NCBI RefSeq assembly: GCF_003260195.1
Contig: NZ_QEIH01000006.1
Span: 62,001-126,000, forward strand
Source of the DNA: Lutibacter citreus
GTDB lineage: Bacteria; Bacteroidota; Bacteroidia; Flavobacteriales; Flavobacteriaceae
Length of the DNA: 64,000 nucleotides
Reading direction: 5' to 3'
In this document: in pieces, positions 8,745-42,949 of the stretch
Layout of the letters: each line of letters opens with the position of its first letter
Position numbering within the stretch: the stretch's first letter is position 1
Notes under the pieces: generated by a model
Database searches by the model: none
The model's input: the letters and a program-made list of their open reading frames with translations, nothing else
Told to the model about the DNA's origin: nothing
Made by a program: the position numbers and the translations under genes

Positions 8745-11700
8745 TTATTTAATTTTCACTGAATTGTTCTTAGAAATCAGTTTCAATTTTGAATTATTAA
8801 CACCAAACAAAAAACCTTGATTTCCTGATTTTCCCAACTTTATTGAAGCCGTTGATTTTACTTCACCCAATATCATAACTCCACTTTCAAATGCTGGTAC
8901 TGGAATGAAATCTCCTTTAGCATCTCCTAACAACACCAAACCGATTCCTGCATCATTCCGTATGGTTTCTACTCCAGAATTATATAAATTTCCGGCAACT
9001 AATAAATCTAAATATTGATCATTATTATAATCAAATACTTCAATAGAGTTAATTGATGATAACTGGGCTGATCTTGGTAACTGATGCATTACAAACTTTT
9101 GATTTCCTTTATTTTCAATCCAACAATTAGCAAAGGTATTTGCTTTATAATGAAATGATTTCATTAACATACCCTCTCCATAAATTTCAGCCATATCTGC
9201 ATTTGCAAATGCTTCGTATGTTTTAAACCGCTGTTGTATTGCGGGAACCTGTATTGATGAATATTCTCTACCTCTAACAGGAAGTCCATTATAACTTAAA
9301 ACAATATCCAAGTGATCATCTTCATCAAAATCATTTAAATAAATTTCGAATGGAGAAGTTTCACTTGCCTTATAATCATAATTGAGCCCCAGATTTCCAG
9401 CAATAAAATCTTTATCCCCGTCATTATCTATATCAACTTCCTTAAGGCTATACCACCATCCTTCTGTATTTTTCAATCCAACCTCATCCGTGATTTCAAC
9501 AAATTTCCCATCTTCATTTTCAAAGAAACGTATTGGCATCCATTCTCCTGTAATTATCAATTCAGGCAGATTGTCATTATTAAGATCACTCCACACTGCA
9601 GAGGTCACCAATCCTGCACTCATTAATTCAGGCGCTATTTCTTCTGTAACATCTTTATATCTTATTTCCTCATCTTTTCCTCCCTCATTACGGAGTATAT
9701 AACTCTTTGCTGGTAAAGGATAGATTCCTGGTGAAATTCTACCACAAACAAATAAATCTAAATCGCCATCTCCATCATAATCACCAGGGACTACTTGTGA
9801 CCCACTTGAAGAAATTAGGGGTAACGCACTATTAGATTTCACAAATCCATTTTGAGTATTTACATATAGTCTATCTTGATAATACTTATCTCCTCCTGTT
9901 AAATTGTTACCACCACTAACAACATACAAATCCAAATCATTGTCATTGTCAGCATCAAATAATAATACTCCTGTGTCTTCAAAATTTGAATCTTGTTCCC
10001 AGGGCCCTTTCATTTTAATAAATTCTCCAGATTCTAACTGAAGATACATAGCAGCAACAGCACCTTTAGCATTCCCTACAAAAAAGTCTTCATAACCATC
10101 ACCATTCACATCTCCAACTGTTAACGGCGGTCCTAATTTTGAATTCATGTGAGGTAGTAATGGCTCCCGTTCAAGATCATCAAAAACATCTTCAATATGC
10201 TCAAAATCAATGCCATAGCTAGTAGTAATATCTTTAAAGACAACCGGTGTTTTTGAATTATCTTGTGGTTTTACCTTAGCATCTTTATAAAATACTTTTA
10301 ATAATTGATTAGAATTTACGTTTTTTAATACCTGAACTTTTCCATCTGGCCATTGAACGTTTATATCAGATATGAGTTCAATATCTCCTAATCCAAAGTG
10401 AATTATAGGCTCAACACTAGATTGAAATCCTCTAGAAAGAGTTAATTCCTGTGTCTGTTCAATCCCATAAGATTTAATCGTAATTTTAGTTCCCAATCCC
10501 AAAGTGTTTTTTTCGGAACCAATTAATTTTATTTTCAAGTATCTATTTCCATATTTATTGGCTTCATTCTCAATAATTGATGCCGCTTCATCTATATTAT
10601 TTATAATAATATCAAGGTCTCCATCATTATCAAGGTCTCCATACGCAGCTCCATTTGAAAATCCTTCATCACCCAATCCCCATTCTTTGGTCACATTTGT
10701 AAATGACAAATTAGAATTATTCCTAAAAGCATAATTCGCAACAGGTTTGCTTGGGTAATCCGATAATTTTTTTCGTTTATTATTAAATGGGTTATCAATT
10801 TCCGAATGAATTATGTCATTATTATTTATATCCCTTTTTATACCATTTGTTATGAAAATATCTTTCCAGCCGTCATTATTCATATCCATAAATAAAGTAG
10901 ACCAACTCCAGTCAGTTGCATAAGTATCTGTAAACCTAGAAATTTCACTAAATATTGGAGTACCATTATCTGTTACACCATTATTTAATTGGAAACTATT
11001 AGTCATATATTGATAATGGAACCCCAATTCAACTCCTTCACTGAAGGATTTATATTTCATATTAGACAAGTTAAGAAGTGCTCTTTTGTAATCTTCAGGC
11101 ACCATATCAGTTTGGAACAAGTCTATCCAACCATCATTATTAAAATCCGAAGCATCTAAACCCATTCCAAAAAATGATGTATGACCAGTAGATTCTTTAA
11201 TTTTCTCACTGAATGTAGAATCTCCATTATTTATATATAAATAATCAGGAACATTAAAATCATTTGAGATATATAAATCTTTCCATCCATCGTTATTTAA
11301 GTCTGTTGCAACTACTCCAATTGCTAATCCAAAATTTTGTACACCTGCCTCCTTTGTAACATCCTGAAAAAAACCATTTCCATTATTCTTGTATAGATGA
11401 CCTGATAACTCTGGATCATTTTTTTTCATTTCATTATAATAAAATTTATTACCCATACTTAATGAAACCTGCGGATAATTACCAACAAAAAGATCTATTA
11501 ATTCATCATTATTATAATCAAAAAAAGTAGCTTGTATAGAAGGAGTACTATCTGCAATTCCATATTCTTCCGCTTTTTCAATAAATGTCAAATCTCCATT
11601 ATTAATATATAATTGATTTTTTGTATTTCCATCCATTCCAGAAACACATACATATATATCAATCCAGCCATCATTATTCACATCTGCCATTGTTACTCCT

Positions 11701-12065
11701 GTATACCAACGCTCATCACCAGTTATTCCTGCTGATAATCCAATATCTTCAAATTGCATTCCTCCTTTGTTGAGATACAATTTATTTTCAACCATATTAC
11801 CCGTAAAAAAAACATCTGATAAACCATCATTGTTTATATCTCCAATCGCAACTCCCCCACCCATATAAAAATAAGGGTCATTGAAATTGAAATTATCAGG
11901 TTCAATAATTTCATTGGAAAAATAGACTCCTGTTTTTTCAGTTTCTAGAGGCCTAAAATGACAATCGTTAAATTCGGCTATTTTATTTTCATTATTACAG
12001 GAAAAACAAAGTAAAACTGTAAAGATTAGAAAATTAAACTGAGTTATTTTTTTGATTTTTTTCAT
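8745..12065 (-). CDS. Large FG-GAP/VCBS and UnbV lipoprotein (CRTAC1-like)
   Basis: A 1106-residue putative surface or outer-membrane lipoprotein. A signal peptide ends at Cys23 (CFSC). It carries two FG-GAP/VCBS propeller-like blocks with many calcium-type DxNxDG loops (DINNDGLSD, DVNNDGWID, DYNNDQYLD). Between them is an UnbV/ASPIC segment near residues 505-590 (LKIKLIGSEKNTLGLGTKI ... HFGLGD ... INVQWPDGK). Proteins of this type often sit beside SusC/SusD pairs. They are thought to be calcium-dependent binding or scaffold proteins, but no activity is established. It starts 40 bases after the regulator gene, so it is probably cotranscribed with it. It is a paralogue of the protein at 17123-20422, with the same length and layout. 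Confidence 0.88.
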   Translation of the reverse strand: MKKIKKITQFNFLIFTVLLCFSCNNENKIAEFNDCHFRPLETEKTGVYFSNEIIEPDNFNFNDPYFYMGGGVAIGDINNDGLSDVFFTGNMVENKLYLNKGGMQFEDIGLSAGITGDERWYTGVTMADVNNDGWIDIYVCVSGMDGNTKNQLYINNGDLTFIEKAEEYGIADSTPSIQATFFDYNNDELIDLFVGNYPQVSLSMGNKFYYNEMKKNDPELSGHLYKNNGNGFFQDVTKEAGVQNFGLAIGVVATDLNNDGWKDLYISNDFNVPDYLYINNGDSTFSEKIKESTGHTSFFGMGLDASDFNNDGWIDLFQTDMVPEDYKRALLNLSNMKYKSFSEGVELGFHYQYMTNSFQLNNGVTDNGTPIFSEISRFTDTYATDWSWSTLFMDMNNDGWKDIFITNGIKRDINNNDIIHSEIDNPFNNKRKKLSDYPSKPVANYAFRNNSNLSFTNVTKEWGLGDEGFSNGAAYGDLDNDGDLDIIINNIDEAASIIENEANKYGNRYLKIKLIGSEKNTLGLGTKITIKSYGIEQTQELTLSRGFQSSVEPIIHFGLGDIELISDINVQWPDGKVQVLKNVNSNQLLKVFYKDAKVKPQDNSKTPVVFKDITTSYGIDFEHIEDVFDDLEREPLLPHMNSKLGPPLTVGDVNGDGYEDFFVGNAKGAVAAMYLQLESGEFIKMKGPWEQDSNFEDTGVLLFDADNDNDLDLYVVSGGNNLTGGDKYYQDRLYVNTQNGFVKSNSALPLISSSGSQVVPGDYDGDGDLDLFVCGRISPGIYPLPAKSYILRNEGGKDEEIRYKDVTEEIAPELMSAGLVTSAVWSDLNNDNLPELIITGEWMPIRFFENEDGKFVEITDEVGLKNTEGWWYSLKEVDIDNDGDKDFIAGNLGLNYDYKASETSPFEIYLNDFDEDDHLDIVLSYNGLPVRGREYSSIQVPAIQQRFKTYEAFANADMAEIYGEGMLMKSFHYKANTFANCWIENKGNQKFVMHQLPRSAQLSSINSIEVFDYNNDQYLDLLVAGNLYNSGVETIRNDAGIGLVLLGDAKGDFIPVPAFESGVMILGEVKSTASIKLGKSGNQGFLFGVNNSKLKLISKNNSVKIK

Positions 12066-12105
12066 ACGAATATTTTTTACCTGATCACTTAATAATAAAT
12101 TTGTT

Positions 12106-15100
12106 TTATTTTAAAGAATACTGTGATGGTGGTTTCCCAAACATTTTTCTAAAACATTTTCCAAAATAATTAGGATCCTTAAAACCTACTTGATAGCATA
12201 CCTCAGTGACACTAATTTGACCTTGCCCCAACAATTGCTCTGCTCTTTTAAGCCGTATCATCCTCATAAAATCATTAGGTCCTAAACCTGTTAATTTTTT
12301 TATTTTTCTAAAAAACGTAGATCTACTAATATTCATATCTGCAGCTAATTCATCTACCCAGTAGCTACTATTAGACATTTGTTTCTCCATTAATTCCATA
12401 ATGCTATCCAAAAATAGTTGATCAATAGAATTAAGTTCAATTTTATCTGGTTTTATAGTATCTTGTATCTTAAATCGCTTATAAATTAACTCTCTAGTCT
12501 CTAACAGCTTATCCACTCTAATTTTTAATAAATCCATTTTAAAAGGTTTTGGTAAATAGACCTCTGCACCAGATTCAATCCCATCAATTCTATGTTCTAC
12601 AGCACTCAGGGTAGTTAGCATTATTATAGGAATATGGCATGTTCTAATATTGCTCTTTAATTTTTTAGTTAATTCAATACCATCCATAATTGGCATTAAT
12701 ACATCTGTAATAATTAAATCTGGTATTTCCTTTTGAGCTATTTCATATCCCATTTTACCATTTTCTGCTGCCAATATTTCATAATTCTTAGCCAAACCTT
12801 CTTTAACAATTGTTAAAATATCTTCATTATCATCTATTATTAAAACAGTATTTTTATTTTTAGAAGTGTTCTCTTCTTCTAGTTTATTTTGATCTATAAG
12901 CGGAAATTCATCTTCTGATTTTATTATTTTTTCGTCTTCTCTAGAAACACCTAGCATTTCTTCTGCTGCCAAATGGGATTTACCCAATGGAATTTCTATA
13001 ATAAAGACTGATCCACTCCCTTCTTCAGAATTAACAGATATATTACCATAGTGTATCTCTACTAAGTCTTTTGCTATTGCTAATCCTACACCACTTCCTG
13101 ATTTTAAATTTTGATTTTGATAAACCTCTTGAACCTGATAAAACCTATGAAAAATATTTTCTAACTGACTAGAAGGTATACCCCTTCCATTATCTTTAAC
13201 TTCAATCCTAACTATTTCTTCAACTTTTGAATTTATATTGTTTCTCTTATTAAAATTAACAGACTTTTTTGAGGCCATTTTTGAAACCTTTATCACAATT
13301 TCACCTTTATTTTCTATACTTTTAAAAGCATTTGACAACAAATTATTTAATACTTTTTCTAATTTATCCCAATCAAACCAGGTAATTATTTCGTCATATT
13401 CACTTTCAAAAACTAATTTTATATGTTTTTTACTGGCCAATTCTTTAAATGAATAAGTGATTTTTTTAATGAAATTGATGATATTTCCCTCTGCGGTATT
13501 CAATTTTGTTTCACCTAATTCAATTTTTCTGAACTCCATAAGTTGATTAACCAATCGTAACAAATAATTAGCGTTTCTATAAATCATTTCAAATTTAGGT
13601 TTTAACTCTAAATTTTTTGAAACTGACGCCAATAATTCTTCAATAGGGTTAATTATTAATGTGATTGGGGTTTTAAAATCGTGTGAAATATTAGTGAAAA
13701 ATTGAAGTTTTAGGTCGTTTATTTTCTCTATTTCTTTTTCTCTAATTTGAGCCTCTCTATTTTTTCTTTTTATTAATAAAAAAGATCTTATTCCCCAAGC
13801 AATAAATAAACATATTAAACTATAAAATATATACGCCCATATACTAAACCAATAAGGTGGGATTATTTTAATTTTTAAAACTGCTTGTTTATCACTCCAA
13901 AGGCCATCGTTATTTGATGCCTTTACTTTAAAAAAATACTCCCCATGAGATAAATTAGTATAATGTGCAAAATTAGATCCTGTTGTATAATTCCAATCAT
14001 TATCCAGCCCTTCTAATTTATATTGAAATCTGTTTTTTTCTGGGGCTACAAAGTGCATTGCTGAAAAATCAATAGTAATAGAATTTTGAAAATGATCCAA
14101 AATAATATCATTTCTATTTTTAGAATCACATATTAATACTCTGTCCTTTTCGGATGCATAAGGGATTCCATTTATTTTTAATCCAGTTATATGAACAGAA
14201 GGAAGTATTTCATTATTCTTTAGTTCTTGTGGGTTAAAAATATTCAGTCCTCTCAGCCCTCCAAAAAACATATAACCACTATTGTTCTGATAGTATGCGC
14301 TTTTTCTAAAATTATGACTTTGTAAACCATCACTCGCATCATAGTTTTCAAATTTCTCGGTATTCTTATCAAAGCAAGAAATACCATCATCTGTACTTAG
14401 CCATAATCTCCCTAAATCATCTTCTAAAATTCCATATATCGCATTATTTGCTAATCCATCTTTTTGTCTAAAATGTTTAAAAATTGGTGTTTCCTCTATA
14501 TTTTCTGAAACAATCATTTTATTAAGCCCACCACCAAAAGTACCAATCCAAAAAACACCTTCCTTATCTTGATGAATGGAAAAAACTGAATTATGACTTA
14601 AAGAATTGGCTTTTGAATTGTTTTGTTGATAATTAATAAACGTATCTGATTCACCATTTTTTCCTTTAACCCTTAAATTAAGTCCTCCATCAAGAGTTCC
14701 AATCCATAAATTTTTATTGTTATCTTCATACATTACAGAGATAGCATTGGAAGATAAACATTTATAACCTGAATTATTTTTGCGGTAATGTGTTACTTTT
14801 GATTCTTCTGGAAATTGCGAATTTTTAGTTTTCTTCCATTTTACAAGTCCATCATTAAAAGAAGCAAACCAAAGATTTTCATCATCATCTACTAACATAT
14901 TATAAACTTCAGAAAGTTCGAATTTCTCATTGAAAAAAACTGATTTTTTTAGTTCTCCATTAAATCTCATCCTAGATATGTGATCTCTTTCAGCAATCCA
15001 ATAATCTCCTTCATATTTTATCATTGATAAAATAGCATTAGAGGTCTTTTTACCATTTATAAAATACTGTTCAATCTTGGGGTTTTTCAATTGATTATTT

Positions 15101-16287
15101 TTAAAGGACAATAAATTCAATCCATTTTCTGTGCCTACAAAAAATGTATTATTATCCCCTTCAGTAATTACATTAATTGCTCCATTACTTAAAGTATTGT
15201 TGGAAGTTGGAATAGATTCAACATGATGAATATTCTTTCTATTCAAATTAAATTTATGTAAACCGCCAGAGGATGAACCTACCCATAAAACAGACGAAGA
15301 ATCAACAATTAATTTTGTTACTCTATTATTATATAACGAGTATGGGTTTTGGGGATCATTTTTATACAATTTATAACTCCCAGTATTTGTGTTCAGCAGA
15401 GCCAATCCATAGTTAGATATCACAACCCAAATAAGCTCTTCATCTTGCTCCAAAAACATATTTGTATAAATCTCTTTCTCTAGCCTACTTGACCCAATTA
15501 AGTAATCTCTTTTTTTTGAATTTTTATCAATAAACCTATTTTCATTTAATTGAATACAGGACACTACATTTCCATAGGTACCTAACCAGAACCTATTTTT
15601 ATCGTCAATATGTATGGATACTATCTCTTTTGTTTGAAGTGGTGCTTTTTTAAAACTATAAATACCATCCTTTTTTATAACCTTGTATAATCCATTTTCA
15701 CTTCCAACCCAAAGATCATTAAACTTATCTTTAACAATAGCAGTAATATTACTACTCATTAAACCAAACTCAGCCCCTTTTATTTTATTAAAATGTAGTG
15801 TTCTTTTCTCTCTAAACACAAAGATTCCAGAAAACTCAGTACCAACCCAAATATTATTAGATTCATCAAAGTTAATTGTTGTAATATGATTATTGTTGGC
15901 TTCATTATAAATGCGTAAAAATTTCCCTGACTTTTTCTCATATTTACACAATCCATAAGTTGTCCCAATCAAAACATCCCCAAAGGGATCTAATTTTAAT
16001 ACTATAATGGAATTATCTATCAGAGAATTCTTATCATCAAATTTATTTGTGTGAAGTTTAAAGTTATTTCCATCATACTGGTACAAACCATTAGGAGTTC
16101 CAATCCAAATATAACCATCATTATCTTGTAAAATATCTTCTACACTATTTTGATTAAATCCTTTTTCGTCTAAAAAATGTTCAAATTTTAAATCCGGAAA
16201 TTGAGCATACAATGTTTGCATACCAATTATTATGAAACTAAATTGAATAATCTTTATGATGTTTTTTATTTTTAACTTAAAATTCAC
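12106..16287 (-). CDS. Hybrid two-component system regulator (propeller-kinase-receiver-AraC)
   Basis: A single-chain sensor and transcription factor of the HTCS class. From the proposed GTG start (16287) it has 1393 residues: a signal peptide ending TLYAQ, about a dozen two-component-regulator propeller repeats with WIGT/GLYKY motifs, a Y_Y_Y domain, one membrane segment, HisKA with H869 in NISHDFKTP, a HATPase domain (DNGRGIP), a receiver domain with D1195 in TDVLMPIMDG, and a C-terminal AraC-type helix-turn-helix. HTCS proteins bind oligosaccharides or other ligands in the periplasm and switch on nearby SusC/SusD operons. The GTG is preferred to an upstream TTG at 16368 because the TTG lies inside the promoter and because GTG opens a proper signal peptide. 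Confidence 0.92.
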   Translation of the reverse strand: MNFKLKIKNIIKIIQFSFIIIGMQTLYAQFPDLKFEHFLDEKGFNQNSVEDILQDNDGYIWIGTPNGLYQYDGNNFKLHTNKFDDKNSLIDNSIIVLKLDPFGDVLIGTTYGLCKYEKKSGKFLRIYNEANNNHITTINFDESNNIWVGTEFSGIFVFREKRTLHFNKIKGAEFGLMSSNITAIVKDKFNDLWVGSENGLYKVIKKDGIYSFKKAPLQTKEIVSIHIDDKNRFWLGTYGNVVSCIQLNENRFIDKNSKKRDYLIGSSRLEKEIYTNMFLEQDEELIWVVISNYGLALLNTNTGSYKLYKNDPQNPYSLYNNRVTKLIVDSSSVLWVGSSSGGLHKFNLNRKNIHHVESIPTSNNTLSNGAINVITEGDNNTFFVGTENGLNLLSFKNNQLKNPKIEQYFINGKKTSNAILSMIKYEGDYWIAERDHISRMRFNGELKKSVFFNEKFELSEVYNMLVDDDENLWFASFNDGLVKWKKTKNSQFPEESKVTHYRKNNSGYKCLSSNAISVMYEDNNKNLWIGTLDGGLNLRVKGKNGESDTFINYQQNNSKANSLSHNSVFSIHQDKEGVFWIGTFGGGLNKMIVSENIEETPIFKHFRQKDGLANNAIYGILEDDLGRLWLSTDDGISCFDKNTEKFENYDASDGLQSHNFRKSAYYQNNSGYMFFGGLRGLNIFNPQELKNNEILPSVHITGLKINGIPYASEKDRVLICDSKNRNDIILDHFQNSITIDFSAMHFVAPEKNRFQYKLEGLDNDWNYTTGSNFAHYTNLSHGEYFFKVKASNNDGLWSDKQAVLKIKIIPPYWFSIWAYIFYSLICLFIAWGIRSFLLIKRKNREAQIREKEIEKINDLKLQFFTNISHDFKTPITLIINPIEELLASVSKNLELKPKFEMIYRNANYLLRLVNQLMEFRKIELGETKLNTAEGNIINFIKKITYSFKELASKKHIKLVFESEYDEIITWFDWDKLEKVLNNLLSNAFKSIENKGEIVIKVSKMASKKSVNFNKRNNINSKVEEIVRIEVKDNGRGIPSSQLENIFHRFYQVQEVYQNQNLKSGSGVGLAIAKDLVEIHYGNISVNSEEGSGSVFIIEIPLGKSHLAAEEMLGVSREDEKIIKSEDEFPLIDQNKLEEENTSKNKNTVLIIDDNEDILTIVKEGLAKNYEILAAENGKMGYEIAQKEIPDLIITDVLMPIMDGIELTKKLKSNIRTCHIPIIMLTTLSAVEHRIDGIESGAEVYLPKPFKMDLLKIRVDKLLETRELIYKRFKIQDTIKPDKIELNSIDQLFLDSIMELMEKQMSNSSYWVDELAADMNISRSTFFRKIKKLTGLGPNDFMRMIRLKRAEQLLGQGQISVTEVCYQVGFKDPNYFGKCFRKMFGKPPSQYSLK

Positions 16288-16337
16288 AAATAAAATGGTC
16301 TTATAATTACTCAAATACTTTCCAATAAACAAAGAAT

Positions 16338-16368
16338 CAAATATAATATTACTCGTTAGATAATACAA
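16338..16368 (-). promoter_or_regulatory. Promoter of the HTCS regulator gene
   Basis: The minus strand has -33 TTG (16366-16368), a 20-base spacer and -7 TATATTTG (16338-16345), a full Bacteroidetes-type promoter. Transcription would start near 16334, about 45 bases before the GTG at 16287. It overlaps the region that a naive longest-ORF call would assign to the protein. Confidence 0.6.
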
Positions 16369-17122
16369 TAAACAATACTGTTTTAATTTATTTTCTCAAC
16401 TTGTAATTTAAACCTATATTTCTAGAACTTAATACAATTCTAACATTATAAAACCCAAGCTCTAATTATTATCTATAATATAAAAAACAGATAGCCCGAG
16501 TTTTTTCTAAACTATAATTTTCTTTTAAAAACTACTTTTTCCTTTAATAGGTGATGTTAGCTTTTAATTAGAAAGCAATAGTTTATAACGCCCTAACTTA
16601 AATCAATTATAGCATTTCTTTTACTTACTTTAAAAATAGCACATTTATTCTCTAATGAAAATTTAATTTCTTACCGTTTAGTGAACCCAAACCAGACTTA
16701 AAATAAACTTTATATTCTAATGACACTTTTTGTTTAGAAATGAAAAATCTCAAACCATATTTAAAACAATATGATTTGAGATTAATACAAACTAAACTTA
16801 AGTTTTATTTTATTCTAAAACACCAAAATGGGCAAAAATTAAATGAATACCTTTCTTATAACCGAAGATATTTTAACGCTTCTTAGCTTTTATTTTTATT
16901 TGAACATTATAAAGATAAAATATTTCAAGTTATTAACTTGGTTATCACTGGTCAACAACAAGTAATATTTAACCAAATGTTAGAAAAATAAAATTTCTGA
17001 TAGTGAACTTGTTACAAAATGACTAACAAAGAACTAAATACTATTGTTTTCTTACAATTCGTTTTTTATTAACTTTTTAAGTTAAACTAACTTAGTTATA
17101 TTAAAAAGAACAAGATGCAAAC
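16369..17122. other. 754-base gene-free region
   Basis: AT-rich spacer between the HTCS promoter and the end of the second large FG-GAP gene. No reading frame with coding character was seen on either strand. The one clear structure is the inverted repeat at 16746-16783, listed separately. Confidence 0.6.
16746..16783 (-). terminator. Long imperfect inverted repeat, possible terminator
   Basis: Arms of 16 bases (16746-16761 and 16768-16783) pair with one mismatch around a 6-base loop. On the minus strand the hairpin is followed by TTTTTCATTTC, so it could end transcripts from the FG-GAP gene that stops at 17123, about 340 bases upstream. It could also be an operator or an sRNA end. Confidence 0.45.
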
Positions 17123-20422: not shown

Positions 20423-20445
20423 GAGATTATTGTTTATGGGTAAAA

Positions 20446-32900: not shown

Positions 32901-32911
32901 ACTATTAAAGA

Positions 32912-34225: not shown

Positions 34226-34243
34226 ATTGTATTATTAGTATTT

Positions 34244-35338
34244 ATGAATTCATTTAATTCTGTTTTTTTATTAAGAATAATAACATTTATTATTCTTTTA
34301 AATGTACCTAAACAAGTTGAGGGGCAAACCATAAATATTGGATTATTAATTAATGATGAGAGTCATATAAACGCGAAATATGCGGCAGAATTGGCCATTG
34401 AGCAAGCCAACTTAAAGCCTGGATTAAATGGTAACAAATTTAATTTGGTAACTCAATCAATGGAAGGTCCATGGGGTACTGGGGCTAAAAAGGCTGTTGA
34501 TTTAATTTTTCAAGATAATGTTTATGCTATTTTAGGATCTCATGATGGGCGCAATGCACATTTAGTTGAGCAGGTTACAGCCAAAACACGTACTATTTTT
34601 TTGTCGGCTTGGGCAACCGACCCTACCCTTTCAAAAGCTTTTGTGCCTTGGTATTTTAATAGTGTTTTTAATACTGAAAAACAGGCTACCTCTATAAGTA
34701 ATGAAATATATCAACATAGAAAACTGAAGAAAATTATTTCAATTTCAGATAATTCTTATGATTCAAATCAATTTTTAAATAGCTTTATTCAAATTTCAGA
34801 AAAGAAAGGTTTGCCAAAAATGGTTCAACTTTCATATGCCAACGCTTCTAATAATTTCAGTAATCTTTCTGAGCAATTAAAGAAAGTAGAATTTGATGGT
34901 ATTGTTATAGTTGGAAGCTCTTCAGATACTAATAAAATAGTAAATCACATTAGAAAACTTAAAATAAATAAACCTATTTTCAGCCCTTCATTATATTTTG
35001 GAGCTAATAAAACTATTTCTAAAGATTATGAAAATACAATTTCTATTGATGCCAATTTATCATCAAATTCAAAATGGATAAAGTTTAAGATAGCGTATTT
35101 TAAAAGGTTTAAAAAAGAACCTGGTTTGATAGAAGCCTATGCCTATGATGCAACCAATATTATTATTGAGGCAATTACAGAATCTGGCTTTAATAAGGAA
35201 GAAATACTGCATTCTTTAGCAATTATTAATCACAATGGTGTTACAGGGAATATTCAATTTGATCAAAATGGAAATCGCAAAGGTGAAGTCAATTTGTTAG
35301 AAGTTAAAAATGCTTTTATCACTAAAGTTGTACGGTAA
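34244..35338 (+). CDS. ABC-type substrate-binding protein, second copy
   Basis: A 364-residue periplasmic binding protein of the same Peripla_BP_6 fold as its upstream neighbour but strongly diverged. The signal peptide ends near VEGQ (residue 28). The lobe motifs are INIGLLINDESHINAKYAAELAIEQA, VYAILGSHDGRNAHLVEQV, GIVIVGSSSDTNKIVNHIR and EAYAYDATNIIIEAI. It lacks the 50-residue insert of the first copy. The two proteins may bind different ligands, or form a dimer as in Venus-flytrap receptors. No transporter partner is encoded nearby. Confidence 0.82.
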   Translation: MNSFNSVFLLRIITFIILLNVPKQVEGQTINIGLLINDESHINAKYAAELAIEQANLKPGLNGNKFNLVTQSMEGPWGTGAKKAVDLIFQDNVYAILGSHDGRNAHLVEQVTAKTRTIFLSAWATDPTLSKAFVPWYFNSVFNTEKQATSISNEIYQHRKLKKIISISDNSYDSNQFLNSFIQISEKKGLPKMVQLSYANASNNFSNLSEQLKKVEFDGIVIVGSSSDTNKIVNHIRKLKINKPIFSPSLYFGANKTISKDYENTISIDANLSSNSKWIKFKIAYFKRFKKEPGLIEAYAYDATNIIIEAITESGFNKEEILHSLAIINHNGVTGNIQFDQNGNRKGEVNLLEVKNAFITKVVR

Positions 35339-35368
35339 ATTACCTTTTTATTTCTTATTTTTGATTTT

Positions 35369-38300
35369 ATGAAAAAAATATTCATCACTTTTTTATTTAT
35401 TCTTATTTCAACTACTTTTTTTAGTTGTAAAAAAACTCAAAAAGACCCTAAGCAAGTTAAACTTGATTTAATGTCAGCTCAAACATTGGGGCTTGCTTAT
35501 CTTGAAGAATTTAATCTTGAATTAGCTAAAAATGAGTTTCTAAAAGTTATTGAACTTGCACCAAATAAAAAACGTGGCTATGCTAATCTGGGTTTAACCT
35601 ATTTGAGAATGGGGAATAATATTGAGGCTGAAAAACAATTATTAAAAGCAATTAAAATAGACCCTAAGGATGCAGACGTAAGGTTAATGCTTGCAACTGT
35701 TTACCAGATGAAGAACAACAATGAAAAGGCCAAGCAAGAACTTAAAAAAGCTCTTGAATTTGATCATTCTCACGTAAAAATACTATATAATTTATCGGAA
35801 TTATATTCATTAAACAATGATGAATCTTCTCGTAAAGAACGAAAATTATATATTCTTAAACTAGTTAAAAATGCCCCAGGAAATATAGTTCCAAAATTAG
35901 ACTTAACAACTATTTTTATTCAGGATGGTGAAACTGATGCTGCAATTAATCAACTAGAGATTATTCAAAAACAATTTCCAGAATTCCCAAAAGAAGCTGT
36001 TGAATTTTATGATAACACACTTCAGTTTTTGAAGAAAAAGGATAAAGAAAATGCTTTGGTGCAATTTACTATTTTTCAAAATTATTTAAAAGTTACATTT
36101 CCGTACCAGTCGGGTATAAAAGACTTAAAAGGACCTGGAGGATCATCTATAGGATTTCCTTTAATTACTTATAACCACGCCCCCTATCAGGTAGTAGAAA
36201 ATGAATCAATATTAGATGTAATTAAATTTGTTAAAATAACAGCACCAATAGGTTTAGAAATTGTTCCAGTTTTTAAAGATGAATCTAAAAATGAGACGTT
36301 AAATTCTACTCAGGTAGAAACAGCAGATTATGATGGTGACGGAGATTTTGATTTATATGTAAGTAGTTTTGATGCTTCAACTTCAACCTATAAACACTTT
36401 CTTTTTAATAATGACATGGTTCAGTTTAATGATGTTTCAGAACAAGTTGGAATTAATCATACCGGTGAAGATACTTTTGCCAAATTTGTAGATTATGACA
36501 ATGATGGTTTTCTAGATTTATATATTGTTCGAAAAAACGGAGATATCTTATACCGAAATGAAGGTAAAGGAGCATTCAAAAACGTTACAGATAAAGCAGG
36601 GATTGACACTAAAGGAGGAAACAAAGCTTTATTTTTTGATTATGACCATGACGGTGATTTAGATTTATTTAAAACAACTTCAAGTTTTAATATTGTATAT
36701 AGAAATAATGGAGATGGGACATTTAAAAACATTTCAAATACTATTAATTTTTCAGGAAAAGCTAATTCAAATTCAGTTGATGCTGCTTTTGGAGATTTTG
36801 ATGATGATGGTGATATTGATTTGTTGGTAATTAATTCTAATGAAAGTGCTTCACTGTTTTCAAATCAAAGAGAAGGTCGTTTTAAAAATTTAACAGATAA
36901 AAGTGGGATAAAGGATAATCTAAACTCAAGTAATGTTTCTGTTGGTGATTACAACAACGATGGATTTTTAGATTTATTTATTACCTCCTTAAAAGACGGG
37001 GGAACCTTATTCGAAAATAAAGGGGAAGGAAAATTTGAAAAGGTGAAAAAGTCTGGAAAAATGGAAAACTCCCTTAAAGGTGTTAAAGCATATGATTCTA
37101 AATTTTTTGATTTTGATAATGATGGTTTTCTAGATATTATTGTTGCTGGAGAATCTGAAATTACGGGTAAAAGAGGTCTACAATTATTTCATAATGATGG
37201 GAAAAATGAATTCTCAAATGTTTCTCATCTACTGCCTGAAGATACAAAATCCGCAAAACAACTTACGCTTTTAGACTACAATAACGATGGAGATTTAGAC
37301 TTAATAATAACAGGTTTAGATGGAGGTGTTTTTCTTTTGAGAAACGATGGAGGTAGTATTAACCATTATGTTAATGTGAAACTTGTTGGATTAAGAAACG
37401 GTAGTGCAAAAAACAACTATTTTGGAATAGGTGCTAAAGTTGAAATCAGAGCTGGAGATTTGTATCAAACTATGGTAGTTACAGATCCAAATGTGTATTT
37501 TGGTTTAGGTCATAGGGCTAAAGTTGATATTATTAGAATAACCTGGACAAATGGTGTTCCTCAAAATATGCTATTGCCAGATGCAGATCAAGCACTTATT
37601 GAATCTCAAGTATTAAAAGGTTCTTGTCCATTTTTATATACCTGGAATGGAAGTGAATATGTTTTTGTTAAAGATATTACGTGGCGAAGTGCATTAGGTA
37701 TGCCTCTTGGAATAATGGGTGGTACAACATTGCATGCATTTCCAGATGCTTCTGATGATTATATTAAAATCCCAGGTGAAATGCTTCAACCTAAAGATGA
37801 AATGTATTCTTTAAAAATCACTTCAGAATTGTGGGAAACTATTTATATGGACAAAGTTCAATTAGTTGCAGTTGATCATCCCGATTCAATTGATGTATTT
37901 ATTCCAGAACAATTTACACCCCCTCCTTTTCCAGGGTTAGATATTACACAAGTTTATAAAAAACACACACCAGTTTCTGCTAAAAATTTATATGGCAATG
38001 ATGTTCTTTCTTTTATAACTGAAAAAGATGATAAGTATTTGTCAGATTTTAAACTTGAAAAATATCAGGGATTAACTGAAATGCAAGAAATTATTTTGGA
38101 TCCAGGAAATTTAGACTTCAACAAGGAGGTTTTTATATTTTTAAATGGATGGATTTTTCCTTCAGATGCTAGTATTAATGTAGCACTATCACAAACAGAT
38201 AAATTAAAAGTATCTTTTCCTGTAATTCAAGTAGTAAATAAAAAAGGTAATTGGGAAACGGTAGATAAAAATCTTGGTTTTCCAATGGGTAAAGATAAAA

Positions 38301-38932
38301 CAGTAATAGCAGATCTTTCGGGGAAATTTCTATCAAACGACCATAGAATAAAAATTAAAACGAATATGGAAATATATTGGAATCAGATATTTTTCTCAAA
38401 TTCAAATCCAAATGTGCCAATGGAAATAACCGAGTTAAATCCAGACAATGCAGAAATACATTATAGAGGCTTTTCGCATAGTTATAAAAAAGGAGGTCGT
38501 TACGGTCCTCACTGGTTTGATTATTACGATGTAGATAAAACAAAAAAATGGCGTGATTTAACAGGTAACTATACCCGGTATGGTGATGTACTTCCGCTTT
38601 TAAAGGAATCGGATAATAAATATATTATTTCAAATGCAGGTGATGAAACATCGCTTAACTTTAGTGTGAGTAACTTTCCAAAGTTAAAAGTTGGTTGGAA
38701 AAGAGATTTTCTAATTCATAGCGTTGGTTGGGTAAAAGATGGAGATATTAATACTTCTTTTGGACAAACAGTACTTCCATTGCCTTTCCATGGAATGGAG
38801 TCTTATCCACCTTCAAAAAATGATATTTACCCTAATAATTCTAATCTTAAAGAGTACAATCAAGAATACAATACTAGGATCGTAAAAATGGATGATTATC
38901 GCAATTTAATAAAAAAGAATAAACAAGAATGA
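35369..38932 (+). CDS. TPR, FG-GAP, UnbV lipoprotein with extra C-terminal module
   Basis: A 1187-residue lipoprotein and the largest protein of the operon. Cys20 (FFSC) is the lipobox. TPR repeats span about 35-210 (GYANLGLTYLRMGNNIEAEKQ-type helices). FG-GAP repeats with DYDGDGDFD, DYDNDGFLD and DFDDDGDID loops fill about 300-660. An UnbV/ASPIC segment is at about 670-745. The last 440 residues, starting at GSCPFLYTWNGSEYVFV, form a separate tryptophan- and proline-rich module of unknown function, also found at the end of TPR/UnbV proteins in other phyla. It overlaps the next gene by 4 bases (ATGA). Likely extracytoplasmic; it may be the scaffold or the modified substrate of the system. Confidence 0.85.
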   Translation: MKKIFITFLFILISTTFFSCKKTQKDPKQVKLDLMSAQTLGLAYLEEFNLELAKNEFLKVIELAPNKKRGYANLGLTYLRMGNNIEAEKQLLKAIKIDPKDADVRLMLATVYQMKNNNEKAKQELKKALEFDHSHVKILYNLSELYSLNNDESSRKERKLYILKLVKNAPGNIVPKLDLTTIFIQDGETDAAINQLEIIQKQFPEFPKEAVEFYDNTLQFLKKKDKENALVQFTIFQNYLKVTFPYQSGIKDLKGPGGSSIGFPLITYNHAPYQVVENESILDVIKFVKITAPIGLEIVPVFKDESKNETLNSTQVETADYDGDGDFDLYVSSFDASTSTYKHFLFNNDMVQFNDVSEQVGINHTGEDTFAKFVDYDNDGFLDLYIVRKNGDILYRNEGKGAFKNVTDKAGIDTKGGNKALFFDYDHDGDLDLFKTTSSFNIVYRNNGDGTFKNISNTINFSGKANSNSVDAAFGDFDDDGDIDLLVINSNESASLFSNQREGRFKNLTDKSGIKDNLNSSNVSVGDYNNDGFLDLFITSLKDGGTLFENKGEGKFEKVKKSGKMENSLKGVKAYDSKFFDFDNDGFLDIIVAGESEITGKRGLQLFHNDGKNEFSNVSHLLPEDTKSAKQLTLLDYNNDGDLDLIITGLDGGVFLLRNDGGSINHYVNVKLVGLRNGSAKNNYFGIGAKVEIRAGDLYQTMVVTDPNVYFGLGHRAKVDIIRITWTNGVPQNMLLPDADQALIESQVLKGSCPFLYTWNGSEYVFVKDITWRSALGMPLGIMGGTTLHAFPDASDDYIKIPGEMLQPKDEMYSLKITSELWETIYMDKVQLVAVDHPDSIDVFIPEQFTPPPFPGLDITQVYKKHTPVSAKNLYGNDVLSFITEKDDKYLSDFKLEKYQGLTEMQEIILDPGNLDFNKEVFIFLNGWIFPSDASINVALSQTDKLKVSFPVIQVVNKKGNWETVDKNLGFPMGKDKTVIADLSGKFLSNDHRIKIKTNMEIYWNQIFFSNSNPNVPMEITELNPDNAEIHYRGFSHSYKKGGRYGPHWFDYYDVDKTKKWRDLTGNYTRYGDVLPLLKESDNKYIISNAGDETSLNFSVSNFPKLKVGWKRDFLIHSVGWVKDGDINTSFGQTVLPLPFHGMESYPPSKNDIYPNNSNLKEYNQEYNTRIVKMDDYRNLIKKNKQE

Positions 38933-40590
38933 GATTGAAAATAAAAGGAATTATTTGTATTACATTATTAATGAGCGTTTCAACAATTTTAATGGCTCAG
39001 AATAATAAAGTTGTTTTTACCAATGTAGCAAAAGAAGTAGGTGTTAATTTCAATTACACTTTTGGAGATAATAGTTATGAGAATATTTTAGAAAGTAGTG
39101 GCTCAGGTATAACTGTATTTGATTACAATAATGATGGCTTGATGGATATTTATATGATGAATGGAACGTATCTTGAAGGAATTTCAAAACCAGAGGGTAA
39201 AAAGTTTGAGGGTACTTCAAATAAATTGTATAAAAATAATGGCGATGGAACGTTTACTGAAGTTGCTCAAAAAGCGGGTGTTGATAATAAAAATTGGAGT
39301 ATGGCTGCAGGAGCTATAGATTTGGATAATGACGGTTTTCAAGATTTATACTTATTAAATTACGGACCAAATATTTTCTATCACAATAATGGAGATGGAA
39401 CTTTTAGTGATATTACAGCTTCTCTCGGGTTACAAGGACCTGATGACTTAAACGGGTTCACAAAATGGAGTATTGGAACTTCTTTTTGGGATTACAATAA
39501 AGATGGAAGAATGGATTTAATGGTTGGGAATTTTCTTGCCTTTGATCCCGAATATATATCTACCCAAACACCTGGAATGATGCCTCACCCATCTGAATAT
39601 AAAGGACAAGCATCAATGTTATACGAGCAACAAGCCAATGGGAAATTTAAAGATGTTACTGAAGAAAATGGGCTATTATTTCCAGATTCTAAATGCATGG
39701 GGTTAACTGTTTATGATTATGATAACGACAACGATTTAGATATTTTTCAGGCAAATGACCATCAAATGAATTTTTTGTTTAAAAATAATGACGGTGTTTT
39801 TAAAGAGGTTGGAATTGGAACTGGTATAGCTACAAATAGTAAAGGCCATATTACAGGTTCCATGCATGCAACTATTGGAGATGTAGATGGAGATGGGTTA
39901 ATTGATATTTTAGTTTCGGACTTAAAATATGGTGCATTGTATAAAAATCTTGGGAATGGCGTTTTTAAAGATATTACTGAATCAAGTGGAATTGCAACTC
40001 CAATGGCAGGTAAAGGAAGTTGGGGAACGGCTTTTTTGGATTTTGATAATGATGGAGATATAGATATTATTTCTGCAAATGGAACAGCTGAAGAATTAAT
40101 TTTACAGTACCCTCTTTTGTTAGAAAATGATGGGAAAGGAAATTTTAAAGATATTGGTCAAAACCACGGTTCTTATTTTTCAACAAAACGTTCTGGAAGA
40201 GGTTTGGCAATTTCAGATTACGATAATGATGGAGATTTAGATGTTATTATTTCTCATGTTGATTTAAAAGCTGATGCTGCCTTATTAAGAAATGATGGAG
40301 GAAATAAAAATAATTGGTTAGCTATTACATTGTTAGGTGAAAATGGTTTATCATCTGGCATAGCGGCTAAGGTTTCAATAGTTTCAGGAGGAAAAAAACA
40401 AGTTTCTGTTAATCAGTGGACAACTGGATATTTATCAAATAGTGAGCCTCGCTTACATTTTGGACTTGGAAATAAAAAAATTGTTAACAAGATTGAAATT
40501 GTTTGGCTAGATGGAAAAAAAGAAATGTTTGAGAATGTAAACGCTAATCAATTTATAACAATTAAAAAAGGAACTGGAATTATAAAATAA
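38929..40590 (+). CDS. FG-GAP/VCBS-UnbV secreted protein (CRTAC1-like)
   Basis: A 553-residue secreted protein with a type I signal peptide ending LMAQ (residue 24), FG-GAP repeats (DYNNDGLMD, DLDNDGFQD, DYNKDGRMD, DVDGDGLID, DFDNDGDID) and a C-terminal UnbV/ASPIC domain (NWLAITLLGENGLSSGIAAKV ... HFGLGNKK ... IEIVWLDGKKEMFE). It is the closest relative in this window of the protein at 25965-27665, but is not a lipoprotein. Its ATGA overlap with the TPR protein gene indicates coupled translation and so a shared complex is likely. Enzymatic activity is unknown. Confidence 0.87.
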   Translation: MRLKIKGIICITLLMSVSTILMAQNNKVVFTNVAKEVGVNFNYTFGDNSYENILESSGSGITVFDYNNDGLMDIYMMNGTYLEGISKPEGKKFEGTSNKLYKNNGDGTFTEVAQKAGVDNKNWSMAAGAIDLDNDGFQDLYLLNYGPNIFYHNNGDGTFSDITASLGLQGPDDLNGFTKWSIGTSFWDYNKDGRMDLMVGNFLAFDPEYISTQTPGMMPHPSEYKGQASMLYEQQANGKFKDVTEENGLLFPDSKCMGLTVYDYDNDNDLDIFQANDHQMNFLFKNNDGVFKEVGIGTGIATNSKGHITGSMHATIGDVDGDGLIDILVSDLKYGALYKNLGNGVFKDITESSGIATPMAGKGSWGTAFLDFDNDGDIDIISANGTAEELILQYPLLLENDGKGNFKDIGQNHGSYFSTKRSGRGLAISDYDNDGDLDVIISHVDLKADAALLRNDGGNKNNWLAITLLGENGLSSGIAAKVSIVSGGKKQVSVNQWTTGYLSNSEPRLHFGLGNKKIVNKIEIVWLDGKKEMFENVNANQFITIKKGTGIIK

Positions 40591-40638
40591 AATAGTATTT
40601 TTATCAATTCAGTAATTAAAAATATTAAATAAGTAATA

Positions 40639-41991
40639 ATGGATATAGAGCAAATAAGTAAAAATAATAGCATGTATGTGAGTAAGGTTATTGACCTTAC
40701 AAATCCTGAAAAGAATGTTATTTATAATATGACGCATGAAGAGGCCGTAAATATTGTGAAATCTGGAGATGTTGAAGCTGTTCGTAAAATAGATGGTCAG
40801 TTTTCACTTATATCTGTAGAAGAAAAAACAATTCGTATGGCAAGATCTATTGGGCGTCCAATTCGATATTTTATTGCCAAAAGAGCTGCTGGACCACAAT
40901 TAATTATTGCTGAACGAATAGATGTTATTTTTGATTATCTAAAAAAAGAAGGAATGGACGATCAATTTCACCCTTCTTATACACGTATGGCTCCTGCACA
41001 TTACATAACTAAAATAGAGTTATTAGGTTGTCCAGACCCAAACCCAATTTATACACGATTTTTTACTCCTGAACGAAACAAATATGCTCCAAATAGTATT
41101 AAACAAATTGGAGCGGATTATATAGGAGCCGTTTATAAAGAAATAAAAAAATGGCTACAATATAGAGCTACAGAAGGCCCTATTGGAGTTACTTTTTCTG
41201 CAGGTATTGATAGTGGTTCAGTTTTTTTATTAATGTATCATGCATTAAAAGAATTGGGTGAAAGTCCTTCAAGATTAAAAGCGTTTACACTTTCAATTGA
41301 TGGTGATGGTGCCGATTTAATGCAAGCACGAAAATTTTTACAAAAGTTAGATCTTGAATTGTTTTTAGAACCAATTGAGTTGGATTATAAGGCGTTAAAC
41401 TGGAAAGAGGCTATTTCTGTAGTGGAAGATTATAAACCATTAGATATTCAATCCGCAACAATGAATTTATCCTTATTACAAGGTGTTCGATCTCGTTATC
41501 CAGATTGGAAATATATAATTGATGGAGATGGTGGAGATGAAAACTTAAAAGACTATCCAATAGAAGATAATCCTGAATTAACAATTCGTAGTGTTCTAAA
41601 TAATTTAATGTTGTATCATGAAGGATGGGGAGTAGAATCTATAAAACATTCTTTAACATATTCAGGAGGTTTAAGTAGAGGTTACATGAGAACATTTTCA
41701 CCTGCAGATTTGTTAGGTTTTGAAGGTTTTAGTCCATATACGCTGCCAAATGTAATTGAAATTTCTGAAGGTGTACCATATATTGATATGACCGATTGGG
41801 ATCATAAAAAATTATATGACCTTAAAGGTCAAATTGTATTTGAGGGTGTAAAAGCCATTACCGGAATGGAAATGCCAATTTTTGAAAAAAGACGTTTTCA
41901 ACATGGAGTAGCATCAAAAGATAATTTTAATAAACATTTCCCTGAGAAAGAAATTACATACAGAAAAGAGTTCCTATCAAAGTATGAGTAA
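40639..41991 (+). CDS. Asparagine synthetase-like ATP-dependent ligase lacking glutaminase cysteine
   Basis: A 450-residue cytoplasmic enzyme. The N-terminal 140 residues keep the class-II amidotransferase fold (KIDGQFSLISVEEKTIRMARSI ... LIIAERIDVIF) but begin MDIEQ, with no cysteine at position 2, so glutamine hydrolysis should be absent. The synthetase domain has the PP-loop S187-A-G-I-D-S192 (usual form SGGxDS) and D295-GDGGDE-301. Like beta-lactam synthetase and related enzymes it probably adenylates a carboxylate and joins it to an amine that is not glutamine-derived ammonia. It overlaps the radical SAM gene by 8 bases, so both probably act on one substrate. The product is unknown. Confidence 0.82.
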   Translation: MDIEQISKNNSMYVSKVIDLTNPEKNVIYNMTHEEAVNIVKSGDVEAVRKIDGQFSLISVEEKTIRMARSIGRPIRYFIAKRAAGPQLIIAERIDVIFDYLKKEGMDDQFHPSYTRMAPAHYITKIELLGCPDPNPIYTRFFTPERNKYAPNSIKQIGADYIGAVYKEIKKWLQYRATEGPIGVTFSAGIDSGSVFLLMYHALKELGESPSRLKAFTLSIDGDGADLMQARKFLQKLDLELFLEPIELDYKALNWKEAISVVEDYKPLDIQSATMNLSLLQGVRSRYPDWKYIIDGDGGDENLKDYPIEDNPELTIRSVLNNLMLYHEGWGVESIKHSLTYSGGLSRGYMRTFSPADLLGFEGFSPYTLPNVIEISEGVPYIDMTDWDHKKLYDLKGQIVFEGVKAITGMEMPIFEKRRFQHGVASKDNFNKHFPEKEITYRKEFLSKYE

Positions 41992-42949
41992 AAATGAAAG
42001 AGCAGTAATAGACACAAAATGGATAGTTTCTCATCGTGGTAAAAAAAACCAGGTTAATCCATTAGTGCCCTATGCTTGGTTGGTTGAAAAAGAATTAACT
42101 TCTTCAGGAGAAATTGAAGATACAGCGATTATTTTTTTAACCAACCGAGAATGCCCTTTTCATTGTTTAATGTGTGATTTATGGAAAAACACAACAGATA
42201 ATCCAGTTCCTTTAGGAGCCATCCCTACTCAAATTGAATGGGCGCTCTCTAAAATGCCAAAGGCAAAACATATAAAACTTTATAATAGTGGTAATTTTTT
42301 TGATGAAGCTGCTATACCCCAAAAAGATTATCAAAAAATAGCTGATTTACTACAAAATTTTGAAACAGTTATTGTTGAAAGCCATACAAAATTAATCAAC
42401 CAAAAATGTTTACAGTTTAGAGATTTGTTAAAGCCAAAACTTGAAATTGCTATTGGATTAGAAACAGTTCATCCTGAAGTTTTGATGCAGTTAAATAAAC
42501 AAATGACCTTAAATAATTTTGCAACTGCTGTTCAATTTCTTACAAAGAACAATATTAAATCTAGGGCATTTATTCTTTTAAAACCTCCTTTCACTTCAGA
42601 GGAAGAAGGTATTTATTGGGCTAAAAAATCAATAAATTATGCTTTTAAAGTAGGTATTGATTGTTGTACAGTTATTCCTGTTAGAGCAGGGAATGGAGCT
42701 ATGGAGGTTTTATTAAAAAAAGGTGATTTTAGTTTACCAAAAATAGAATCCCTAGAGACAGTTCTAGAATATGGTATTAATCTCCAATCTGGTCGTGTTT
42801 TTGCCGATGTTTGGGATTTAGGTCTCTTTTCAGCCTGCCCAAAATGCATAGACCAAAGAACAAATCGATTAACCTCTATGAGTGAGACGCAAAAAATGAT
42901 TAAACCTATTATTTGTAATTGTAACAATCATAATAACATTAACTGTTAA
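41984..42949 (+). CDS. Radical SAM protein, last gene of operon
   Basis: A 321-residue radical SAM enzyme with the [4Fe-4S] motif C57-x3-C61-x2-C64 in RECPFHCLMCDLW. The SAM-binding region includes KLYNSGNFFDEAA and the barrel strands IAIGLETVHPEVL and SRAFILLKPPFTSEEEG. The fold resembles the Elp3/RaSEA-like branch. Five further cysteines lie at the C-terminus (285, 288, 311, 313 and 321) and could hold a second cluster or bind substrate. It is translationally coupled to the asparagine-synthetase-like gene. It is cytoplasmic by lack of a signal peptide. It could make a carbon-carbon or carbon-heteroatom bond on a small molecule or peptide; I cannot name the product. Confidence 0.83.
   Translation: MSKNERAVIDTKWIVSHRGKKNQVNPLVPYAWLVEKELTSSGEIEDTAIIFLTNRECPFHCLMCDLWKNTTDNPVPLGAIPTQIEWALSKMPKAKHIKLYNSGNFFDEAAIPQKDYQKIADLLQNFETVIVESHTKLINQKCLQFRDLLKPKLEIAIGLETVHPEVLMQLNKQMTLNNFATAVQFLTKNNIKSRAFILLKPPFTSEEEGIYWAKKSINYAFKVGIDCCTVIPVRAGNGAMEVLLKKGDFSLPKIESLETVLEYGINLQSGRVFADVWDLGLFSACPKCIDQRTNRLTSMSETQKMIKPIICNCNNHNNINC

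Follow-up and report, generated by a model that had tools for sequence, protein, structure and literature searches.

A conserved Bacteroidota operon joins hydrazine synthase homologs to an AsnB-like/radical SAM gene pair and UnbV propeller proteins: a tentative redox cofactor system

A 64,000-nucleotide stretch of the Lutibacter citreus genome (hereafter the window; bases 62001-126000 of contig 32, in a genome of 5.1 Mb and 35 contigs) holds eleven plus-strand genes, at 25965-42949, that form one conserved operon. Judged by profile and structure-database matches, both of its heme proteins are homologs of hydrazine synthase (HZS), one an alpha-like subunit and the other a fused beta-gamma subunit, and an AsnB-like gene near its end tracks, across the phylum, a protein of the same operon in which TPR repeats are joined to FG-GAP and UnbV domains (TPR-UnbV). 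We propose that the AsnB-like enzyme and its radical SAM partner make or install a redox-active aromatic group used by the UnbV proteins, and that the HZS-like complex acts as a periplasmic oxidase; we infer the chemistry, and we put the probability of this reading at about 0.38. Confidence in the operon's anatomy is high, and in the mechanism overall moderate to low. What is new here are the links of the HZS-like core with the AsnB-like/radical SAM pair and with TPR-UnbV, and the association of the pair with a flavin monooxygenase.

Results

The operon and its conservation

The eleven genes follow one another with intergenic gaps of -8 to +59 bp. The first encodes UnbV1 (25965-27665), a CRTAC1-like FG-GAP/UnbV lipoprotein (Pfam FG-GAP_3 and UnbV_ASPIC; lipobox FTGC), and is followed by the genes for the alpha-like (27672-29099) and beta-gamma (29102-31138) proteins and for a free exported beta-propeller (31150-32244) with a weak Pfam match to PorZ_N, under cut-off, and a weak NCBIfam match to a glycosylhydrolase model, far under it (24/175 bits). 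A Rid-family gene (32304-32900; PF01042) precedes those of two periplasmic binding proteins, BP1 (32912-34225; Peripla_BP_6) and BP2 (34244-35338; ANF_receptor/Peripla_BP_6). Then come the TPR-FG-GAP-UnbV lipoprotein (35369-38932), which ends in an unnamed C-terminal domain (37604-38929), and UnbV3 (38929-40590), an exported FG-GAP/UnbV protein. The last two genes are the pair: an AsnB-like amide synthetase without the glutaminase cysteine (40639-41991; PF00733) and a RaSEA-related radical SAM protein (41984-42949; TIGR01210).

Every gene named in a sequence-only reading of the window was found by Pfam on the two strands, and PF07593 (UnbV_ASPIC) occurs five times in the region, in agreement with its count of five FG-GAP/UnbV proteins. 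Its placing of these proteins outside the cytoplasm, at the surface or in the periplasm, with a biosynthetic branch in the cytoplasm, was supported as well. A simple pattern found lipobox-like signals in UnbV1, the HZS-alpha-like protein, TPR-UnbV and, in the neighbouring minus-strand arm, the SusD-like protein and the large FG-GAP/UnbV protein A (FGGAP_A); the second large protein of that arm, FGGAP_B, carries LCFSCN, which the pattern missed.

A profile of four beta-gamma homologs yielded 58 loci in named genomes. The carriers are Flavobacteriaceae (Maribacter, Lutimonas and, for Lutibacter, metagenome-assembled genomes, MAGs), Bacteroidales, Prolixibacteraceae, and MAGs from Balneolaceae (one), from Acidobacteria (two, with the operon in part) and under the label Chlorobiota (two). 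As far as the contigs reach, the order UnbV1, alpha, beta-gamma, propeller, Rid, BP1, BP2, TPR-UnbV, UnbV3 recurs; in many relatives a DAHP synthase gene, absent from the window, is inserted between BP1 and BP2, and exceptions to the order include L045, L063, L066 and the Acidobacteria loci. The AsnB-like and radical SAM genes come after UnbV3, or upstream in L050, L051, L052, L054, L055 and L069. Because the gene order recurs in relatives, the arrangement is not due to chance, and the eleven genes stand as the single unit that they had been taken for.

Gene by gene, tblastn was scored at those loci with enough DNA (42 for the upstream and core genes, 33 with 9 kb downstream). UnbV1 was present at 41/42, alpha at 40/42, the propeller and BP1 at 42/42 each, Rid at 33/42, DAHP synthase at 24/42, BP2 at 33/33, and TPR-UnbV and UnbV3 at 31/33 each. 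Some of the UnbV and binding-protein matches may be to paralogs, and any UnbV protein can yield a UnbV3 match. The beta-gamma gene was found in 5/199 genomes of a family sample, one of them distant (G135), and in 5/395 of a phylum sample, again with one distant match (G533).

Two further features of individual loci were observed. L063 and L045 carry reduced operons without an alpha-like match, and the L063 genome is also without AsnB. In L065, L073, L075 and L077, the beta-gamma or DAHP synthase gene is split over two open frames, which may reflect MAG errors or decay.

A hydrazine-synthase-like heme pair

The alpha-like protein is a lipoprotein with one CxxCH heme motif. It passes the Pfam model HZS_alpha (PF18582) at 62.5 bits against a cut-off of 26.6, and its sole match in the Protein Data Bank (PDB) is HZS alpha (5c2v_A, E 4.7e-15). 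The protein encoded next to it consists of an N-terminal anchor with one CxxCH, a beta-type propeller and a diheme domain like that of MauG and the diheme cytochrome c peroxidases (CCP). It matches the NCBIfam models for the beta-gamma fusion (NF052342, 218 bits), beta (NF052340, 193 bits) and gamma (87 bits), all under cut-off. Its best PDB match is HZS beta (5c2v_B, E 1.1e-42), over residues 62-406, and HZS gamma (5c2v_C, E 3.5e-18) aligns to residues 420-577 and 600-657. The sequence-only reading had called the two proteins c-type cytochromes: both do carry CxxCH heme motifs, and the homology to HZS had been overlooked.

The alpha, beta and gamma parts of anammox hydrazine synthase (5c2v) thus all have homologs in the window; the pair has lost active-site residues and one heme. 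The NCBIfam equivalog cut-offs for HZS were not reached (83/800 and 218/1250 bits). With the 5c2v residue numbering counted from PMC12758564, alignment to 5c2v_C places W488 at the position of gamma-His144, and an equivalent of gamma-Cys165 was not found in the beta-gamma protein. In the alpha-like protein no Tyr stands directly after CVGCH, where the equivalent of alpha-Tyr591 was sought. Exactly three CxxCH motifs together with W488 occur in 50/50 full-length beta-gamma homologs, and a single CxxCH in 48/49 full-length alpha homologs (window included in both), the second alpha heme, alphaII, having been lost. Since the equivalents of gamma-His144, gamma-Cys165 and alpha-Tyr591 and the alphaII heme are absent, hydrazine synthesis is not expected, and this function was rejected for the window complex.

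From its sequence, the diheme part looks like MauG and the bacterial diheme peroxidases, with two CxxCH motifs and the tryptophan conserved among these proteins. Unlike them, it is fused to a propeller and has an alpha-like subunit as its partner. A relation of HZS gamma to MauG/CCP is described in PMC12607021.

The HZS-like core has been in print since December 2025, when Hagglund et al. (PMC12758564) described clades I-IV of such homologs, so that the earlier description of the window's system as being of a new kind was too strong. In the accessible part of that paper, clade III has an FG-GAP gene upstream of alpha, a beta-gamma fusion and two substrate-binding protein genes downstream, with one extra heme motif, no alphaII site and a conserved Trp, and no function is assigned to it. 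By its described features, the operon appears to fit clade III in gene order, in heme motifs and in Trp at 144; as in the window, Trp replaces gamma-His144 and an equivalent of alpha-Tyr591 is lacking. The same accessible text makes no mention of the free propeller, Rid, DAHP synthase, TPR-UnbV, AsnB-like or radical SAM genes, or of their co-occurrence. An earlier paper (Suarez et al. 2023, PMC10732223) suggested that HZS-like enzymes form a wider family acting on other substrates. A literature search by title returned nothing on an AsnB/radical SAM/halogenase combination in Bacteroidetes or on UnbV/UnbU with enediynes and, besides PMC12758564 and PMC12607021, nothing on point.

Partners of the AsnB-like/radical SAM pair

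AsnB was found in 53/57 operon genomes (33/34 and 21/24, with one genome in both sets) versus 24/395 genomes of the phylum sample. Its position could be read at 35 loci (34 loci plus L043), with location on the same contig inferred from coordinates and strand. In 28 of them it lies on the strand of beta-gamma, either 11.0-13.3 kb downstream or 5.4-6.9 kb upstream; in six of the other seven it is elsewhere or on another contig, and L063 has none.

Across the phylum, the AsnB-like gene goes together with TPR-UnbV. UnbV occurs in 24/24 AsnB-positive genomes versus 187/395 overall. The C-terminal domain of TPR-UnbV occurs in 24/24 of these genomes, three of them sources of the domain model, versus 17/371 AsnB-negative genomes, that is, in 41/395 overall (Bacteroidota); the Fisher value of 9e-28 is corrected neither for kinship nor for group overlap and serves as a guide only. 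The radical SAM protein was found in 0/26 AsnB-negative genomes, 17 of them positive for the TPR-UnbV domain, and in 11/11 AsnB-positive ones, where only the negatives inform since nine of the eleven were model sources.

Outside the operon, a flavin monooxygenase/halogenase-like gene stands beside the pair at 18/20 loci, and the remaining two loci stop at or near a contig end. Genome-wide, this gene is present in 22/23 AsnB-positive phylum genomes (the window's excluded, and the query's source genome being one of the 22) versus 1/34 and 0/4 operon genomes. The pair usually has one of two partners, a flavin monooxygenase or the HZS-like complex. The monooxygenase matches the QhpG, LodB and GoxB models, all under cut-off, and the halogenase CmlS scores about like QhpG. 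An RnfD-like gene, located beside UnbV in the loci read, occurs in 15/23 AsnB-positive phylum genomes versus 3/36.

UnbV and the RnfD-like UnbU also occur in enediyne clusters. As separate observations, a triad of AsnB-like, radical SAM and flavin monooxygenase genes is conserved in Bacteroidota (L098-L117), mostly without the HZS-like operon, and in some triad loci a divergent gene separates AsnB from radical SAM. In the window itself, Rnf-Nqr, NQR2/RnfD, RnfC-like and RnfB-like ferredoxin genes lie at 47184-52735 on the minus strand, about 4 kb downstream of the operon.

Cytoplasmic enzymes, Rid and the TPR-UnbV domain

In the AsnB-like protein the glutaminase cysteine was not found: residue 2 is Asp, and the invariant columns of 28 sequences include no N-terminal Cys. 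Its AlphaFold model (pTM 0.84, residues 300-344 below pLDDT 50) has a beta-lactam-synthetase-like fold, with beta-lactam synthetase 1mbz_A as best structural match (Z 23.5, 370 residues, 4.0 A) and asparagine synthetase chains within about 1 Z of it. The fold of the beta-lactam synthetase/AsnB family is kept over these 370 residues, and so are the ATP-binding motifs. The protein differs from that family in scoring under the NCBIfam cut-offs and in its missing cysteine.

The radical SAM protein scores 115 bits against TIGR01210 (RaSEA, a subunit of archaeosine synthase), under the cut-off of 212. It has the radical SAM motif in common with RaSEA (CX3CX2C; C57, C61 and C64), the cysteines of which are invariant in 21 sequences, and differs in having an AsnB-like partner. 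AsnB and radical SAM profiles compared with solved structures gave no real match.

The DAHP synthase present at 24/42 loci hints at a shikimate-derived product. The one such protein checked (P0012) exceeds the NCBIfam cut-offs (NF006421, 444 versus 335 bits; TIGR01361, 393 versus 268 bits). Both Acidobacteria loci carry the gene, placed before the first binding-protein gene. The Rid protein of the window (P0005) has an N-terminal extension of about 60 residues and a weak match to the FkbO/Hyg5 chorismatase model TIGR04444 (23 bits, E 4.6e-5), far under cut-off. In L050, a chorismatase-family gene (3649-4824; TIGR04444 at 143 bits, cut-off 325) was observed between radical SAM and UnbV1, and a Rid gene was not found on that contig.

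The C-terminal domain of TPR-UnbV comprises about 440 strongly conserved residues. Its Pfam matches were only at chance level in 26 members, and no PDB sequence match was obtained; Foldseek gave no PDB match at E 0.001, which is a weak test at a mean pLDDT of 73.

The adjoining SusCD/HTCS arm

Divergent from the operon, a minus-strand arm (8745-25138; Pfam assignments) encodes a SusC-like TonB-dependent transporter (22085-25138), a SusD-like lipoprotein (20505-22064), the large FG-GAP/UnbV lipoprotein FGGAP_A (17123-20422), a hybrid two-component system regulator (HTCS; 12106-16368, with Reg_prop, Y_Y_Y, HisKA, HATPase, receiver and AraC domains) and FGGAP_B (8745-12065). SusC, SusD and HTCS are reminiscent of a polysaccharide utilisation locus; as the sequence-only reading had said, carbohydrate-active enzymes are missing, with no CAZyme or sulfatase family matched by Pfam in the 20 proteins from 4721 to 44268. 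That reading had also joined arm and operon into one system, and had named separate occurrence in most relatives as the mark of independent neighbours. Separate is how most relatives have them.

We searched both sides of the operon with 15 SusC and 17 SusD queries at the 31 loci that extend 9 kb or more upstream. Within about 10 kb, SusC was found at 6/31 loci (L031, L036, L043, L044, L066 and L077) and SusD at 3/31 (L043, L066 and L077), counts that are limited by locus ends, which lower the SusD figure; the SusC genes of L031, L036 and L044 lie close to the locus end, so that SusD is possibly cut off, and the L066 match is downstream. An HTCS of at least 80 bits was found at 1/31 loci (L043). 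On these counts, membership of SusCD/HTCS in the operon unit was rejected. Two relatives agree: G025, of the same family, and G047, of the same genus, have the full operon without the arm, G025 retaining one divergent large FG-GAP gene and G047 having a distant SusCD pair.

The arm also has a life of its own elsewhere. Twenty stretches were chosen around UnbV genes, 3 of them from the own genome and 17 from genomes of the phylum list. In 11, SusC and SusD occur together with a large FG-GAP gene, and 10 of these are in genomes outside the 5 with a beta-gamma match. Since the three genes occur in genomes without such a match, we infer the arm to be an uptake unit of a general, recurring SusCD-FG-GAP type that adjoins the operon in the window and is absent in most relatives; its genes are thus neighbours, probably outside the operon's unit.

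SusCD and UnbV proteins are nevertheless linked as kinds. A row of TPR-UnbV, UnbV, RnfD-like (UnbU-like), SusC and SusD genes was observed in L139, L140, L141, L143, L150 and L151, a UnbV system with a possible membrane electron carrier. In L118 (C1:368000-387900 of the window's own genome) there is a second SusC-SusD-FG-GAP unit, and a further SusC-SusD pair comes after it.

Weaker two-component matches lie near UnbV1 at 7/58 loci, as pairs of weak HTCS matches directly beside it in L031, L034, L044, L047 and L070 and with one gene between in L036 and L043. They are probably two-component systems and possibly the operon's own regulators. A search for a promoter motif shared by the two arms, using a Bacteroidota-type pattern, found nothing in the intergenic gaps; promoter-like sites there were at shuffled level, and 11-mers common to the two AT-rich gaps were uninformative.

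Discussion

In the mechanism that we propose, a chorismate- or shikimate-derived acid would be activated by the AsnB-like enzyme and trimmed by the radical SAM enzyme, and the resulting aromatic amide would then be exported or attached. The Peripla_BP_6 binding proteins could carry the aromatic compound in the periplasm, where the MauG-type diheme site of the HZS-like complex might oxidize it to its redox-active form. The UnbV and TPR-UnbV propellers would finally hold and use the compound as a redox cofactor of the surface or periplasm. Elsewhere in the Bacteroidota, the HZS-like complex could give way to a cytosolic flavin monooxygenase, in many cases together with the RnfD-like (UnbU-like) membrane protein. 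MauG and the monooxygenase QhpG are two routes to tryptophan-derived quinones, so that an exchange of heme complex for monooxygenase would be sensible. The most specific form of the proposal, namely a previously undescribed cofactor system in which AsnB-like and RaSEA-like enzymes make a shikimate-derived aromatic group, carried on TPR-UnbV/FG-GAP propellers and matured by either an HZS-like complex or a monooxygenase, is tentative and on balance unlikely.

Several observations weigh against this mechanism. None of these proteins has an established substrate or product, and DAHP synthase is missing in 18/42 loci and in the window, which leaves the aromatic link indirect. The best solved-structure matches of the Rid protein are RidA-type proteins. 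Among named models, those closest to the binding proteins, under cut-off, are for branched-chain amino acids and urea, and an aromatic ligand is for this reason not favoured; some Peripla_BP_6 members do bind aromatic acids. Four operon genomes are without AsnB (L063 and L065, Bacteroidales and Bacteroides MAGs; L072 and L075, Acidobacteria), and the pair is absent from 17 genomes that do have the TPR-UnbV domain. Nor are the two settings strictly exclusive. The monooxygenase coexists with HZS-like genes in G311 and G553, and in G522 a beta-gamma piece is accompanied by an AsnB pair at a contig end. In G311, of the genus of G553, one stretch (L157) holds RnfD-like, TPR-UnbV, BP2, UnbV1, alpha, beta-gamma, propeller, Rid and BP1 genes. 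G553 and G608, apparently a single genome, were counted in both groups of the monooxygenase and RnfD-like comparisons, and all co-occurrence counts ignore shared ancestry.

The separation of arm from operon is not a clean one either: L077 (1202-6214) alone has the arrangement of the window, with divergent SusC, SusD-like and large FG-GAP genes beside UnbV1; FGGAP_A relatives above 500 bits lie near 14/31 loci; and SusC-SusD directly follows TPR-UnbV, UnbV and UnbU-like genes in 6/20 other loci.

A first alternative is that the cofactor is derived from protein. The AsnB-like ligase and the radical SAM enzyme could modify a residue of a UnbV or TPR-UnbV protein, and the MauG-like diheme site could finish the modification in the periplasm, much as MauG completes tryptophan tryptophylquinone; elsewhere the monooxygenase would carry out an equivalent cytoplasmic step, like QhpG. 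The two routes to tryptophan-derived quinones keep this explanation alive, and it draws on the linkage of the pair with TPR-UnbV, on the MauG/CCP-like gamma part with its retained tryptophan and on the matches of the monooxygenase to the QhpG, LodB and GoxB models, under cut-off as these are. However, the near-equal score of the halogenase CmlS blunts the last point, and DAHP synthase, the chorismatase-like gene and the binding proteins are left unexplained. We regard this alternative as unlikely, if a serious one.

Alternatively, arm and operon might form a single nutrient system: SusCD would import a compound, nitrogenous or aromatic, for the operon to oxidize and assimilate. The divergent placement in the window and in L077, the large FG-GAP proteins near 14/31 loci, the SusCD genes that follow UnbV genes in 6/20 other loci and the amino-acid and urea binders nearest to BP1 and BP2 (under cut-off) would all suit such a system. 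The low frequencies of SusC, SusD and HTCS near the operon do not, and SusCD-FG-GAP units also exist without it; moreover, the cytoplasmic enzymes are synthetic rather than catabolic. This makes a shared nutrient function decidedly unlikely.

It is also conceivable that the operon serves in defence against peroxides or electrophiles, with the HZS-like complex as a periplasmic peroxidase, Rid as a detoxifying hydrolase and the FG-GAP proteins as scaffolds. The CCP/MauG relation and the Rid family are consistent with this role, but it leaves the AsnB-like and radical SAM enzymes, DAHP synthase and the tight TPR-UnbV link unexplained, and we consider it improbable. That the complex is a genuine N-N-bond or hydrazine-type synthase of a non-anammox bacterium is very improbable: both HZS-like subunits are adjacent, alpha then beta-gamma, as in the other homologs of PMC12758564 (accessible text), but the residues and the alphaII heme listed above are absent, with W in place of gamma-His144, and the equivalog cut-offs are missed by far.

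HZS-like complexes are known outside anammox bacteria, with no substrate stated in the published text accessible to us. The link between the HZS-like core, the AsnB-like/radical SAM pair, TPR-UnbV and, often, DAHP synthase makes the question of their substrate testable in cultured strains of Maribacter and Lutimonas, such as the carriers Maribacter polysiphoniae DSM 23514 and Lutimonas saemankumensis DP2N0-7 among the 58 loci, and the orphan UnbV/FG-GAP family gains a candidate biosynthetic partner. Our findings also bear on the origin of hydrazine synthase. If the proposal of a redox cofactor is true, hydrazine synthase would descend from a cofactor-maturing oxidase of this kind.

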